Shown: one piece after another, positions 65 to 22,109 of the stretch | Numbering within the stretch: position 1 is the first letter of the stretch | Layout of the letters: each line of letters starts with the position of its first letter | Source of the DNA: Syntrophothermus lipocalidus DSM 12680 | GTDB taxonomy: Bacteria; Bacillota; Syntrophomonadia; Syntrophomonadales; Syntrophothermaceae | DNA length: 64,000 bases | Reading direction: 5' to 3' | Assembly (NCBI RefSeq): GCF_000092405.1 | Contig: NC_014220.1 | Coordinates: forward strand, 1,736,001-1,800,000 | The notes under the pieces: generated by a model | Database searches by the model: none | Told to the model about the DNA's origin: nothing | The model's input: only the letters and a program-made list of their open reading frames with translations | Program-made: the position numbers and the translations under genes

Positions 65-2542
65 TCAGTTCACCACTATGTTGACCAGTTTACCAGGCAC
101 CGCGATGACTTTACGCACGGTTTTCCCTGCTAACATTTCTTGGATACGGTCCAAAGACATGGCAACGGTTTTCATTTCGTCCGGACCCGCACCCGAAGGA
201 ACCATCGCCCTTTCTCTCACCTTGCCGTTAATCTGGACTACTATCTCAATCTCGTCTTTAACCAAAGCTTCTTCATCGTACTTCGGCCACTGCTGTTGAT
301 GGACGCTTCCCTCGCCGCCTATCGCCTCCCACAGTTCTTCCGCTATATGAGGAGAAAACGGAGACAAAACCAAAACCAGCGCCTTCAAGGCCTCCTTGAC
401 CACCGCCAGGTTCTGATGCTCGTTATCTTTATACTGGTAAAGGGCATTGACCAGTTCCATAATGGCGCTGATGGCAGTGTTAAAATTAAACCTTTTTTCG
501 ATGTCCTCGGTCACTTTCTTGATGGTGAAATGGGTTCGATACCGCAGCTCGCGGTCGGCTGCACTCAGATTCGAACCGCCACCATAAGCTTCGACCCCCC
601 GTACCTGGTTCGAATACTCGGCTACCAAGCGCCATACCCGGTTCAAAAACCGGTAGCAACCTTCCACCCCCTGGTCGCTCCACTCCAGGTCTTTTTCCGG
701 AGGTGAAGCGAAGAGAATGAATAGCCGGGCGGTATCTGCACCGTAGGTGTTGATAATATCTTCTGGGCTCACTGTATTTCCCTTAGATTTCGACATCTTG
801 GCCCCGTCCTTCAATACCATTCCTTGAGTGAGAAGGTTAGTAAACGGCTCCTCACAAGAGACCAGCCCCAGGTCATAAAGTACCTTGGTAAAAAACCGCG
901 AGTACATCAGGTGCAAGATAGCGTGCTCAACCCCCCCGATGTACTGGTCGACCGGCATCCAGTAATCCACAGCCTCCTTGTCCCAAGGTCTGTCTTGAAC
1001 GTGAGGACTACAGTACCGGAAATAGTACCATGAGGAGCATACAAAGGTATCCATGGTGTCGGTCTCCCTTTTGGCCGGGCCCCCACAGCTAGGACACTCG
1101 GTGTTCACAAATTCATCTACGTAGGTCAAAGGGGACTCTCCCGTCGGCCGAAACTCGACGTTGAGAGGAAGCATTACCGGCAGCTGCTCGTACGGCACCG
1201 ACTGGGGACCGCAGTTATCACAGTAAACGATGGGGATAGGTGCTCCCCAGTACCGCTGGCGGGAAATGAGCCAGTCCCGCAACCGGTAGTTCACAGCTCG
1301 TCTCCCAATACCCCGATCCTCCATCCATTCGATGACTTTCTGCTTGCCGTCCTCATTGCCCAGCCCGTCAAACTGGCCCGAGTTAACCATGACCCCACCT
1401 CCCTCATAGGCGGCGGTCATGACATCGGGATCCAGTGACATCCCCTCGGGCTCGATTACCACCCGAACCGGAAGACCATACTTGCGTGCAAATTCAAAGT
1501 CCCTTTGATCATGGGCGGGAACTGCCATTATAGCCCCGGTCCCGTATTCCATCAGGACGTAGTTGGCTATCCAGATCGGCACCTTTTCCCCGTTGACCGG
1601 GTTTACTGCGTAGGCCCCAGCAAAAACCCCTTCTTTTTCAGTTTCCGTGGAAGTGCGGTCGATCTCGTTCAAAAATTTCATCCGATGTATAAACTCATCG
1701 ACCGCTTGCTGGTAAGGGGTGTCGCGAGTAAGCTTTTCCACCAAGGGATGCTCAGGAGCAAGCACCATATAAGTTATCCCGAAAACGGTGTCGGGCCTGG
1801 TAGTAAAGACCGAGACGGTTTCAGCCGAGCCGTCGATAGCCAAAGAAAACTCGCAGCCTTCGCTGCGTCCGATCCAGTTCTTCTGCATTATCTTGACTTT
1901 TTCCGGCCAGCCCGGCAACTTGTCAAGGTCGTTAAGAAGGCGCTCTGCATAATCGGTAATCTTAAAAAACCACTGTTCTAACGATTTCTTCTCTACCCTG
2001 GTGCCACACCGCTCGCAATCCCCGTCCACTACCTGCTCGTTGGCCAGCACGGTGGCACAGGACGGGCACCAGTTTACAGCGGCTTTCTTTTTGTAAGCCA
2101 GCCCGTTTTCGTACAACTTCAAAAACAGCCACTGGGTAAACCTGTAGTACTCGGGCTTGCAGGTAGCAAACTCTCGGGTCCAATCGTAGCTGATGCCCAG
2201 CGACTTCAACTGCCGCTTCATGTTTTCTATGTTGGAATCGGTCCAGATGGAAGGGTGTATTCCGTGTTTGATGGCTGCATTTTCGGCAGGCAGCCCAAAA
2301 GCATCCCAACCCATAGGGTGCAGTACGTTGTAGCCGTTCATGGTCTTGAAGCGGGCCACAACATCGCCTATGGCGTAATTACGCACATGCCCCATATGTA
2401 GGTTTCCAGAAGGGTAAGGAAACATCTCGAGGTCGTAATACTTGGGCTTGGTCTTGTCTTCGGTAACAATGTAAAACCCGTTTTCTTCCCAGAAGTTCTG
2501 CCACTTGGCCTCAACGGTTTTGAAGTTGTACTTGCTCTCCAT
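65..2542 (-). CDS. leuS: Leucyl-tRNA synthetase LeuS
   Basis: Cytoplasmic class Ia aminoacyl-tRNA synthetase that charges tRNA-Leu with leucine. The 825-residue length is normal for bacterial LeuS. The HIGH-type signature appears as HMGH near residue 49, the KMSKS loop as KMSKSKGN near residue 582, and a Cys pair cluster (WCPSC, CERCG) near residues 158-180 fits the zinc-binding insertion. The CP1 editing domain is present ([21 protein letters not shown]). The ATG start is preceded by AAGGAGG. It is transcribed behind a T-box leader whose specifier is a Leu codon, so expression should rise when tRNA-Leu is uncharged. It is the last gene seen before the window edge. Confidence 0.98.
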
Positions 2543-2578
2543 AAAAACCTCCTTAAAGCTTGAGGTTGTAATAACTAC

Positions 2579-2611
2579 AAAACCCCCCGCCCCGGTGAAA
2601 GGGACGAGAGG
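2579..2611 (-). terminator. T-box regulated terminator before leuS
   Basis: On the minus strand, CCTCTCGTCCC pairs over 11 positions (some G-U) with GGGGCGGGGGG across a 7-nt loop and is followed by TTTT. It competes with the antiterminator containing the T-box sequence at 2619-2633. Confidence 0.85.
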
Positions 2612-2648
2612 TTTGCTCCCGCGGTACCACCCTCATTGACAAAATAAA

Positions 2649-2723
2649 TGGTGGAGCTGGCGGGAATCGAACCCGCGACCTCCTCCATGCCAAGGAGGCG
2701 CGCTCCCTCTGCGCCACAGCCCC
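2649..2723 (-). tRNA. tRNA-Ala (anticodon GGC), CCA encoded
   Basis: The cloverleaf is complete. The acceptor stem GGGGCTG/CAGCTCC carries the G3-U70 wobble that marks tRNA-Ala. The anticodon stem CCTCC/GGAGG encloses loop TTGGCAT, giving anticodon GGC. The T arm contains GTTCGATTC, the discriminator is A73 and CCA is encoded. No base suggests decay. The gene lies inside the leuS T-box leader, upstream of that leader's terminator, and no separate promoter was seen for it. It would therefore be made on both terminated and read-through leader transcripts and would need processing out of the leader. Confidence 0.96.
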
Positions 2724-2912
2724 ATCTTTTGCCCGCTTACAGCTGATAACGGAATCCCTCCGGTGCAGGCTACCCTCAGCTCACCCGCACAGCTCCCCGG
2801 CGAGTTCGGCTCTGGTCTGTGCTGCCTTGCACCTTCCGCCAGCTCTCTGTAACAGGTACCAAGGCCTACTACTCCGGTTCACAGCCTGTCCTTTTTTCGA
2901 CTTGCAAGAGCA

Positions 2913-2941
2913 ATTATATGATACTTGTAAGAGTTAGTCAA
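2913..2941 (-). promoter_or_regulatory. Sigma-A promoter for the leuS leader
   Basis: Minus strand TTGACT (2936-2941), a 17-nt spacer, and TATAAT (2913-2918). Transcription should begin near 2906, just before Stem I of the T-box. Confidence 0.8.
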
Positions 2942-3145
2942 CTCGAATTCGCCCTATGTTATCGTTCTGTGATATTGTCACCTTGTAATAGTTGGGTTCT
3001 GGGTCAAAGTTCAGATTGTCTATTTCTTCTAACCCTGGTCTTCAGCAACACTGCCGTAGCCTGCTGCACTGGGTGCTGTACCCGCTCTTCCAATTCTTCG
3101 AGGTTTCCCACCGTTCTAGATACCCTCAAAAACACCCTTAACTGT

Positions 3146-4336
3146 TTAAGTCCATAATCCATTGAACTGGAGAGTATCGTATACCTTAATAGCAGTAAAG
3201 AGACCGAGCCTTATGTCGATCCTTGATAAGTCAATATCAAGGATTTGTTCTATCTTGGCTAGCCGATAATGTAGTGTATTAATATGAATAAAAAGCCTAT
3301 CAGCGGTGGTTTTCCGATTAAAGTTGTTCTCAATTAGTGATCTAAGAGTTGGCATTAATTCAGAATTCTTCTTCTTGTCCTCTTCCAGCAATTTGCCGAA
3401 AGTCTTGAGACAGTATTCTTTCAAAACCTCTGTGTCTTTCGAAAAAATAAAAGCAAACACTCCAAGATCAGTGAATTTCTGAATAAAATTATCCTTCCCC
3501 ATAAGCCTGGGCAAAGTTAGCGCAATGCGAGCTTCATTGTAGCTCCTGCACAACTCTGACAAAGGATATGGCGATCCTATACCTAGTGCTATTCTTGTGT
3601 TAAACCTAGTTTCAATGATTTCCTTATATTTCAAAAGGTCATCTGCAATGGGCCACAGAAGATCAACCTCCAAAGAATTGTTTTTGAGATGGGCCGGCAT
3701 AATAAACGTCAGATATTCTGGTAAGAGAATAGAAATAACCTCTATTCCTTTTTGCCTTTTCAGGTACTCGTGTAGATATGAACGAATTATTCGCCGGTCG
3801 ACTACCTGGCTTGCTTCTTCTAGTTGGAGCAATAAGACGACATAAGGCCTGTTAATGTCTAGGGGTTTCTCACTTAACTGAATTATGTCTGTCATACTGA
3901 CATTACTTTTGAAGGACAAGTATTCCGCTATTTGCGCCTCAAACTCGTTCTTACGCTTATTAATCTTGGCAAAATAACATTTTATAGCTAGTTTCGACTC
4001 CATAAGAACACAAACAGCCTGTCCAATCATTTCTGCAGGAAGACTTCTTGCTACTACGTATGCGCTTGAACCTCCAAGCCCAACGCGATAGTAAAGGGAC
4101 TTATCTGCCTCCTGGTAAAAGTACTTATTATTCGGTATGTTTGTTGGCAATTGAATAAACATATCGTCGAGCTCATAGAGGTCGTCGGCTGCGTCCGGAT
4201 AGTGTATCTGTCCCTTATCGTCTGTAATAAGAATAGGACGCCTAATCCTTTTCTCCAAGTATGAACCTACAAAAGGTAATCCTTGCTCAAGTACGCCGTC
4301 CACCAGCTGATATGCGTCTTTCAGCACTTGCGACAT
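3146..4336 (-). CDS. PucR/CdaR-family transcriptional regulator
   Basis: A 396-residue DNA-binding regulator. The C-terminal ~55 residues have the PucR/CdaR-type helix-turn-helix (TADRLFIHINTLHYRLAKI, about residues 340-358, then IDIRLGLFTAIKVYDTL). The central part fits the GGDEF-like domain that precedes this HTH in the family. The N-terminal ~130 residues are likely a ligand-sensing region (CdaR-like), but I cannot name the ligand. The ATG is preceded by GAGAGGTG at good spacing. It is divergent from the sigma-54 activator at 4772 and may share control of the same block. Its sequence is A+T-richer than leuS and the housekeeping genes, suggesting acquisition with the neighbouring respiratory genes. 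Confidence 0.85.
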   Translation of the reverse strand: MSQVLKDAYQLVDGVLEQGLPFVGSYLEKRIRRPILITDDKGQIHYPDAADDLYELDDMFIQLPTNIPNNKYFYQEADKSLYYRVGLGGSSAYVVARSLPAEMIGQAVCVLMESKLAIKCYFAKINKRKNEFEAQIAEYLSFKSNVSMTDIIQLSEKPLDINRPYVVLLLQLEEASQVVDRRIIRSYLHEYLKRQKGIEVISILLPEYLTFIMPAHLKNNSLEVDLLWPIADDLLKYKEIIETRFNTRIALGIGSPYPLSELCRSYNEARIALTLPRLMGKDNFIQKFTDLGVFAFIFSKDTEVLKEYCLKTFGKLLEEDKKKNSELMPTLRSLIENNFNRKTTADRLFIHINTLHYRLAKIEQILDIDLSRIDIRLGLFTAIKVYDTLQFNGLWT

Positions 4337-22026: not shown

Positions 22027-22109
22027 GTCGGAGTGGTGGAACTGGCAGACACGTACGTTTGAGGGGCGTATGGGCAACCGTGCGGGTTCAAGTCCCGCCT
22101 CCGACACCA
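22027..22109 (+). tRNA. tRNA-Leu (anticodon GAG), CCA encoded
   Basis: Acceptor GTCGGAG/CTCCGAC; anticodon stem TACGT/GCGTA with loop TTGAGGG, anticodon GAG; long variable arm as in class II tRNAs; T arm with GTTCAAGTC; A73 and encoded CCA. It reads CUC and CUU, and CUC is the specifier of the leuS T-box in this window. A terminator follows at 22158. Confidence 0.96.

Follow-up and report, generated by a model that had tools for sequence, protein, structure and literature searches.

A tRNA-Ala(GGC) gene predicted to cap Stem III of the leuS T-box leader in Syntrophothermus lipocalidus and other bacteria

In the tRNA-tufB unit of Escherichia coli, tRNA is co-transcribed with mRNA. Similar to that unit, the leader described here would release a tRNA from an mRNA-bearing transcript. 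Different from it, the tRNA lies inside a regulatory element, between the sensor and the terminator. In Alphaproteobacteria, the tRNA-Sec gene is nested in the selB reading frame, and a link between processing and expression has been proposed (PMC8124441). What the leader shares with that case is the nesting of a tRNA gene within a different functional unit; here, however, this unit is a riboswitch instead of a coding sequence, and the tRNA and the gene are also different. The T-box leaders of thrS and thrZ of Bacillus subtilis are cut by nucleases (PMC3542257). Cutting of a T-box leader by endonucleases is also expected here, but the cuts in B. subtilis are those of RNase J and RNase Y, whereas tRNA-end processing that yields a product tRNA is expected in the leader of this study. 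Finally, similar to the transcriptional leuS T-box (RF00230; TBDB, PMC7778990), the leader possesses Stem I with a Leu specifier, Stem II, the F-box, the RRRNG-Stem III-AA element and an antiterminator and a terminator upstream of leuS. Different from that T-box, a complete, functional-looking tRNA gene takes the place of the short loop at the tip of Stem III. The preliminary description of this DNA knew of no such case, and our search of the open-licence PMC literature likewise found no published description of a tRNA inside a T-box. A T-box survey (PMC2494555) contains no mention of "tRNA gene" or "tRNA-Ala".

The leader is located in the window, i.e., the whole stretch of 64,000 nucleotides of the S. 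lipocalidus DSM 12680 genome that was analysed. Its parts, together with leuS and the predicted effector tRNA, are as follows.

2913–2941, minus strand: leader promoter TTGACT-17-TATAAT, with 11/12 consensus matches
2597–2891, minus strand: full-length leuS T-box leader, into which the tRNA is inserted (RF00230)
2802–2804, minus strand: specifier codon CTC (Leu), cognate to tRNA-Leu(GAG) (sequence and Rfam alignment)
2745–2752, minus strand: F-box CCGTTATC, in the Stem IIA/B region (sequence and Rfam alignment)
2734–2738, minus strand: RRRNG motif AAGCG, before Stem III (sequence; motif definition from PMC7778990)
2727–2733, minus strand: Stem III 5' arm GGCAAAA (Rfam structure line; covariation)
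2649–2723, minus strand: tRNA-Ala(GGC) gene with encoded CCA, the predicted Stem III apical loop (ARAGORN, RF00005)
2638–2644, minus strand: Stem III 3' arm UUUUGUC, then AA at 2637–2636 (Rfam structure line; covariation)
2600–2633, minus strand: antiterminator, with the T-box AGGGTGGTACCGCG at 2633–2620 (Rfam alignment)
2580–2614, minus strand: intrinsic terminator, a 14-pair stem and then a T-rich tail
65–2542, minus strand: leuS, leucine--tRNA ligase (TIGR00396 leuS_bact of NCBIfam, 1185 bits; Pfam)
22027–22109, plus strand: tRNA-Leu(GAG), predicted effector of the CTC specifier (ARAGORN; single copy in the genome)

Rfam RF00230 matched positions 2891–2597 of the minus strand as one full-length T-box (model positions 1–219, 112.4 bits against a gathering score of 93, E 5e-24), and its alignment took the tRNA as a single long insertion. 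Both ARAGORN and RF00005 (68.2 bits) identified tRNA-Ala(GGC) at 2723–2649 of the same strand, with a cloverleaf, an encoded CCA, G3:U70 and A73. These results agree, at the coordinates given there, with the preliminary description, which had placed an intact tRNA-Ala(GGC) in the leuS T-box leader. The terminator and the antiterminator overlap, with CGTCCC common to both, and are therefore mutually exclusive. The CTC specifier agrees with the downstream leuS, and the cognate tRNA-Leu(GAG) is present in the genome; its gene lies about 20 kb from the leader, within the same window. TTGACT-17-TATAAT (2941–2913) was the sole promoter-like site in a scan of 2400–3300. When the entire leader was folded by free energy, the T-box fold was not obtained. 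The gene upstream of the leader (3146–4336, minus strand) encodes a PucR-type regulator with HTH_30 and GGDEF-like domains, and elsewhere in the window a group II intron fragment matched RF02001 at 7236–7072 of the minus strand.

The RRRNG-Stem III-AA element is conserved among T-boxes and serves the sensing of aminoacylation (PMC7778990). In the window, this region reads AAGCG-GGCAAAA-[GAU-tRNA-UUUA]-UUUUGUC-AA. In leuS leaders without an embedded tRNA, an ordinary short Stem III hairpin occupies the same site, such as GAGTG-GGTAATTTATTACC-AA in L226. The AA after Stem III was present in 125 of the 133 distinct loci with an embedded tRNA among the matches listed (see below). When a helix was sought beside the RRRNG motifs, the arms of the same locus formed 5.35 pairs on average, whereas arms swapped between loci formed 2.42 (maximum of 2.73 in 200 shuffles). 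In a second test with 83 loci, in which the anchor was picked regardless of pairing, 91.1% of the cells paired in register, compared with 36–49% after sliding by 1–3 nt and 67.9% with swapped mates (maximum of 72.7% in 500). Compensatory exchanges were A-U/G-C at pair 2 and C-G/U-A at pair 3. Such covariation across the tRNA indicates that both halves of the leader are under constraint to function as a single RNA. Stem III is thus retained, with the embedded tRNA as its predicted apical loop. The suggestion that the tRNA replaces a variable hairpin was correct in that the tRNA lies between the two halves of the leader, but Stem III itself is kept. The further claim that cutting out the tRNA would separate the sensing half from the antitermination half is to be corrected, as the covarying Stem III pairs would still join them; cutting therefore need not separate the halves where Stem III is long. 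In some loci the helix has only 3–5 pairs. The 5' spacing between Stem III and the tRNA varied freely from 0 to 18 nt, with no unpaired nucleotide in several loci.

Other genomes were searched with a pattern that requires a tRNA T-arm 15–45 nt before a T-box core and is blind to the kind of tRNA. It matched all four genomes of the family and 39 of the 63 genomes of the order; the latter is an undercount, as T-box cores like GGTGGTACCACG and AAGGTGG escape the strict pattern. In a species-level genome collection at least 120 loci matched, and ARAGORN identified tRNA-Ala(GGC) at the match in 114 of the 120 among the matches listed. L049, L060, L061, L111 and L112 contained no tRNA and were dropped as chance matches; in L054 the edge of the locus cuts through the match, and this locus is not included in the 114. 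After addition of the loci of the order, with that of the window included, the same architecture was found in at least 148 loci, of which at least 133 were distinct. The comparison of leuS leaders among related genomes, proposed in the preliminary description, thus revealed a widespread arrangement and not a single odd case. Every embedded tRNA across the 133 distinct loci among the matches listed was Ala(GGC), and the tRNA-blind searches revealed no second case with another tRNA embedded. In a sample of 249 genomes of the phylum, the tRNA-blind pattern and an Ala(GGC)-specific pattern returned the identical 51 genomes, compared with 1 match for a backward-pattern control. The recurrence of one architecture in at least 148 loci indicates that the embedded tRNA is not a chance occurrence.

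By their labels, the carriers belong to Bacillota, Chloroflexota, Thermomicrobiota, Armatimonadota, Coprothermobacterota and Caldisericota. A few carrier MAGs are labelled Actinomycetota, Pseudomonadota or Desulfovibrio and may be mis-binned. No match was found in the viral contigs searched. Among the matches listed, leuS was downstream of the T-box in all but five loci, whose sequences stop 10–1139 nt past the T-box core. In one of these five, L091, another gene comes first, which is also found before leuS in the relatives of L091. In L051, L091, L109, L119 and their relatives (Desulfofundulus/Pelotomaculum group), the leader is separated from leuS by an AMP-binding acyl ligase gene, and in L080 and L105 (Armatimonadota and one Chloroflexota) by an ilvE-like branched-chain aminotransferase gene. 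In distant loci, Rfam also reported a single T-box spanning the tRNA, in some above the threshold and in others below it at E values of 1e-8 to 1e-14. For annotation, this means that the insertion drives distant members under the Rfam gathering score.

Both the switch and the tRNA were conserved. The CTC specifier was present in 121 of the 127 loci testable with a simple pattern, and three further loci read GAGACTCGCC. Among the matches listed, G3, U70 and A73 were found in 133/133 distinct loci, an encoded CCA in 99/133 and U at N(-1) in 99/132. In addition, the acceptor stem of the embedded tRNA showed compensatory changes among loci. These patterns indicate that the parts of the switch and those of the tRNA are both under selection.

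The complete genome of S. lipocalidus (2,405,559 bases, one contig) contains 45 tRNA genes, of which one is Ala(GGC). A count of other tRNA-Ala(GGC) genes, also proposed in the preliminary description, hence gave none: the embedded copy is the only one. The Ala(UGC) and Ala(CGC) genes are located elsewhere in the genome. In 29 long ORFs of the window, 65% of the alanine codons were GCC or GCT. Across the order, a recognisable Ala(GGC) gene was found in 56 of the 63 genomes, as exactly one copy in 55 of these 56, and it was inside the leuS T-box in 52 of the 56 (42 identified by a relaxed pattern and 10 by reading the sequence). Its status as a single copy, here and in the order, lends indirect support to a tRNA that is matured and charged with alanine in the cell. 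It therefore appears that one RNA acts as a tRNA-sensing gene switch and, at the same time, is the sole source of a high-demand tRNA.

In 113 loci, the 150 nt before Stem I were scanned for promoter-like sites, defined by at least 10/12 consensus matches. Such a site was found before Stem I in 83 of the 113 loci, where its -10 element mostly lay about 40–60 nt upstream of the AGTA box. Only 4 of the 113 loci had one between Stem I and the tRNA. A promoter directly before the tRNA, with Stem I on another transcript, had been named as the finding that would speak against the arrangement, and the positions of the promoter-like sites do not point to it. As judged from these positions, the leader is one transcription unit.

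We propose that the leader is one dual-purpose transcript, in which the T-box would decide on uncut RNA and tRNA-Ala would be released from both terminated and read-through products. We assign to this reading a probability of about 0.75. Its starting points, namely the architecture, promoter position, conservation, Stem III covariation and sole gene copy, were all read from the sequence. Transcription would start immediately upstream of Stem I, and RNA polymerase would always pass through Stem I, Stem II, the F-box and tRNA-Ala(GGC) on its way to the antiterminator and the terminator. From T-box homology, we infer that the leader senses tRNA-Leu: tRNA-Leu(GAG) would bind the CTC specifier and, if uncharged, stabilise the antiterminator so that leuS is read; without such stabilisation, transcription would stop near 2580. 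The embedded tRNA would fold independently as the tip of Stem III, which would leave the RRRNG-Stem III-AA element of the T-box intact for a decision before any cut. RNase P and a 3' processing enzyme would then free a working tRNA-Ala(GGC) from the precursors of both outcomes. Given that the terminator follows the tRNA, both outcomes would yield a tRNA-Ala precursor, as had been proposed before, and the supply of tRNA-Ala would be independent of leucine status. The longer stretch transcribed before the decision may also extend the time for tRNA-Leu binding. Points against this reading are that RNase P could cut ahead of the T-box decision, that Stem III is short in some loci, that L155 lacks Stem I (see below) and that free-energy folding did not yield the T-box fold; the conservation of Stem III favours a decision on uncut RNA. 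The leader lends itself to a direct test of whether a T-box decides before it is cut, and of how it deals with the enzymes of tRNA processing.

A different matter is why the arrangement has been kept. The tRNA-Ala gene might have landed harmlessly in the Stem III loop and been locked in after other Ala(GGC) copies were lost, in which case the link to leuS would be functionless. We regard such a frozen accident as a serious possibility, at somewhat less than even odds; it is compatible with the dual-purpose transcript and concerns only the reason for its retention. The loops of T-box Stem III vary in size, by which an insertion would be tolerated, and decayed arrangements keep the tRNA. For instance, in genomes of the order, Ala(GGC) stands alone in L210, L213 and L214, where it has a promoter of its own but lacks a T-box. 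In L212 (G026:C109:14900-16043), Stem I, CTC, the F-box and the Stem III 5' arm run into tRNA-Ala, which is followed by a terminator-like hairpin; neither the T-box half nor leuS is present. By this comparison, it is the tRNA that remains in the decayed arrangements of the order. Against an accident, however, the same tRNA is found at the same site before the same gene over several phyla, and Ala(GGC) is the only tRNA found there among the matches listed. This constancy indicates that the dual-function transcript is old and stable. In a LeuS tree (101 rows, unrooted), most Chloroflexota and Thermomicrobiota grouped together, apart from most Bacillota, and the embedded-tRNA trait changed at least 11 times. 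Together with the identity of tRNA, site and gene, the tree suggests an old single origin with repeated loss. Recent horizontal spread was considered as the main cause, but the LeuS tree rather suggests age and repeated loss; gene transfer may nevertheless have occurred.

The preliminary description had left two options side by side, that the switch acts before processing or that processing is itself part of the control. The conservation of Stem III favours the former, and the latter was not favoured. Under the latter, the rate of cutting, or a T-box fold that holds the tRNA ends through Stem III, would set the output of leuS and tRNA-Ala, acting on leuS read-through, leuS mRNA stability or tRNA-Ala yield. 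In its favour, Stem III can reach the tRNA ends, several loci having 0 unpaired nt between the helix and the tRNA on the 5' side. In addition, RNase P is reported to be hindered when a pre-tRNA leader pairs with the 3' RCCA (PMC9433436), and RNase Y, for some also RNase J, cuts the T-box leaders of B. subtilis (PMC3542257). However, the free variation of the Stem III-tRNA distance (0–18 nt on the 5' side) does not point to a tuned link, and U at N(-1) in 99/132 loci is as expected for an ordinary RNase P site. Control by processing is therefore improbable. Similarly, we consider it unlikely that the leader represents a composite RNA class, in which the tRNA-reading riboswitch also serves as a tRNA precursor, each role affecting the other by way of Stem III. 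If it did, RNase P cutting would tune leuS, or the T-box state would tune tRNA-Ala output, and leucine sensing would be linked with alanine tRNA supply.

It is very improbable that the tRNA is a mere structural plug of Stem III that is never matured: it does form the tip of a needed helix, but G3:U70 and A73 are found in 133/133 loci, the acceptor stem has compensatory changes, CCA is encoded in 99/133 and the embedded copy is the sole Ala(GGC) gene of the genome. An assembly artefact or two separate transcripts, with the tRNA under its own promoter and Stem I from elsewhere, can practically be dismissed, as nothing was found in favour other than the promoter-like sites between Stem I and the tRNA in 4/113 loci, while the same order recurs in many independent genomes and phyla, this genome is one complete contig, the backward-pattern control gave 1 match vs 51 and Stem III covariation links both halves.

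Some loci with the dual-purpose arrangement varied at or before Stem I. L155, from a Peptococcaceae MAG, has no recognisable Stem I and keeps the promoter, Stem III, tRNA-Ala, T-box, terminator and leuS. By its sequence, it is a natural Stem I deletion, and the switch is therefore probably not needed everywhere. In L059, L076 and L078 (Coprothermobacterota and Caldisericota), Stem I is very short, its distal part seemingly missing, and the specifier, tRNA and T-box are present. In 13 Chloroflexota loci (L070, L102, L105, L106, L116, L120, L131, L133, L139, L154, L158, L159, and L162), a tRNA-Ala(CGC) gene of the same strand precedes Stem I at a short distance, so that Stem I is located between two alanine tRNA genes ahead of leuS. 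For instance, the T-box match of L131 starts 18 nt past tRNA-Ala(CGC), and a promoter-like TTGACA-17-TATACT precedes that tRNA. Thus, the unit in L131 would be tRNA-Ala(CGC)-Stem I-tRNA-Ala(GGC)-antiterminator-leuS. A unit headed by tRNA-Ala(CGC) is not universal among these loci, because L154 has a promoter-like element between tRNA-Ala(CGC) and Stem I.
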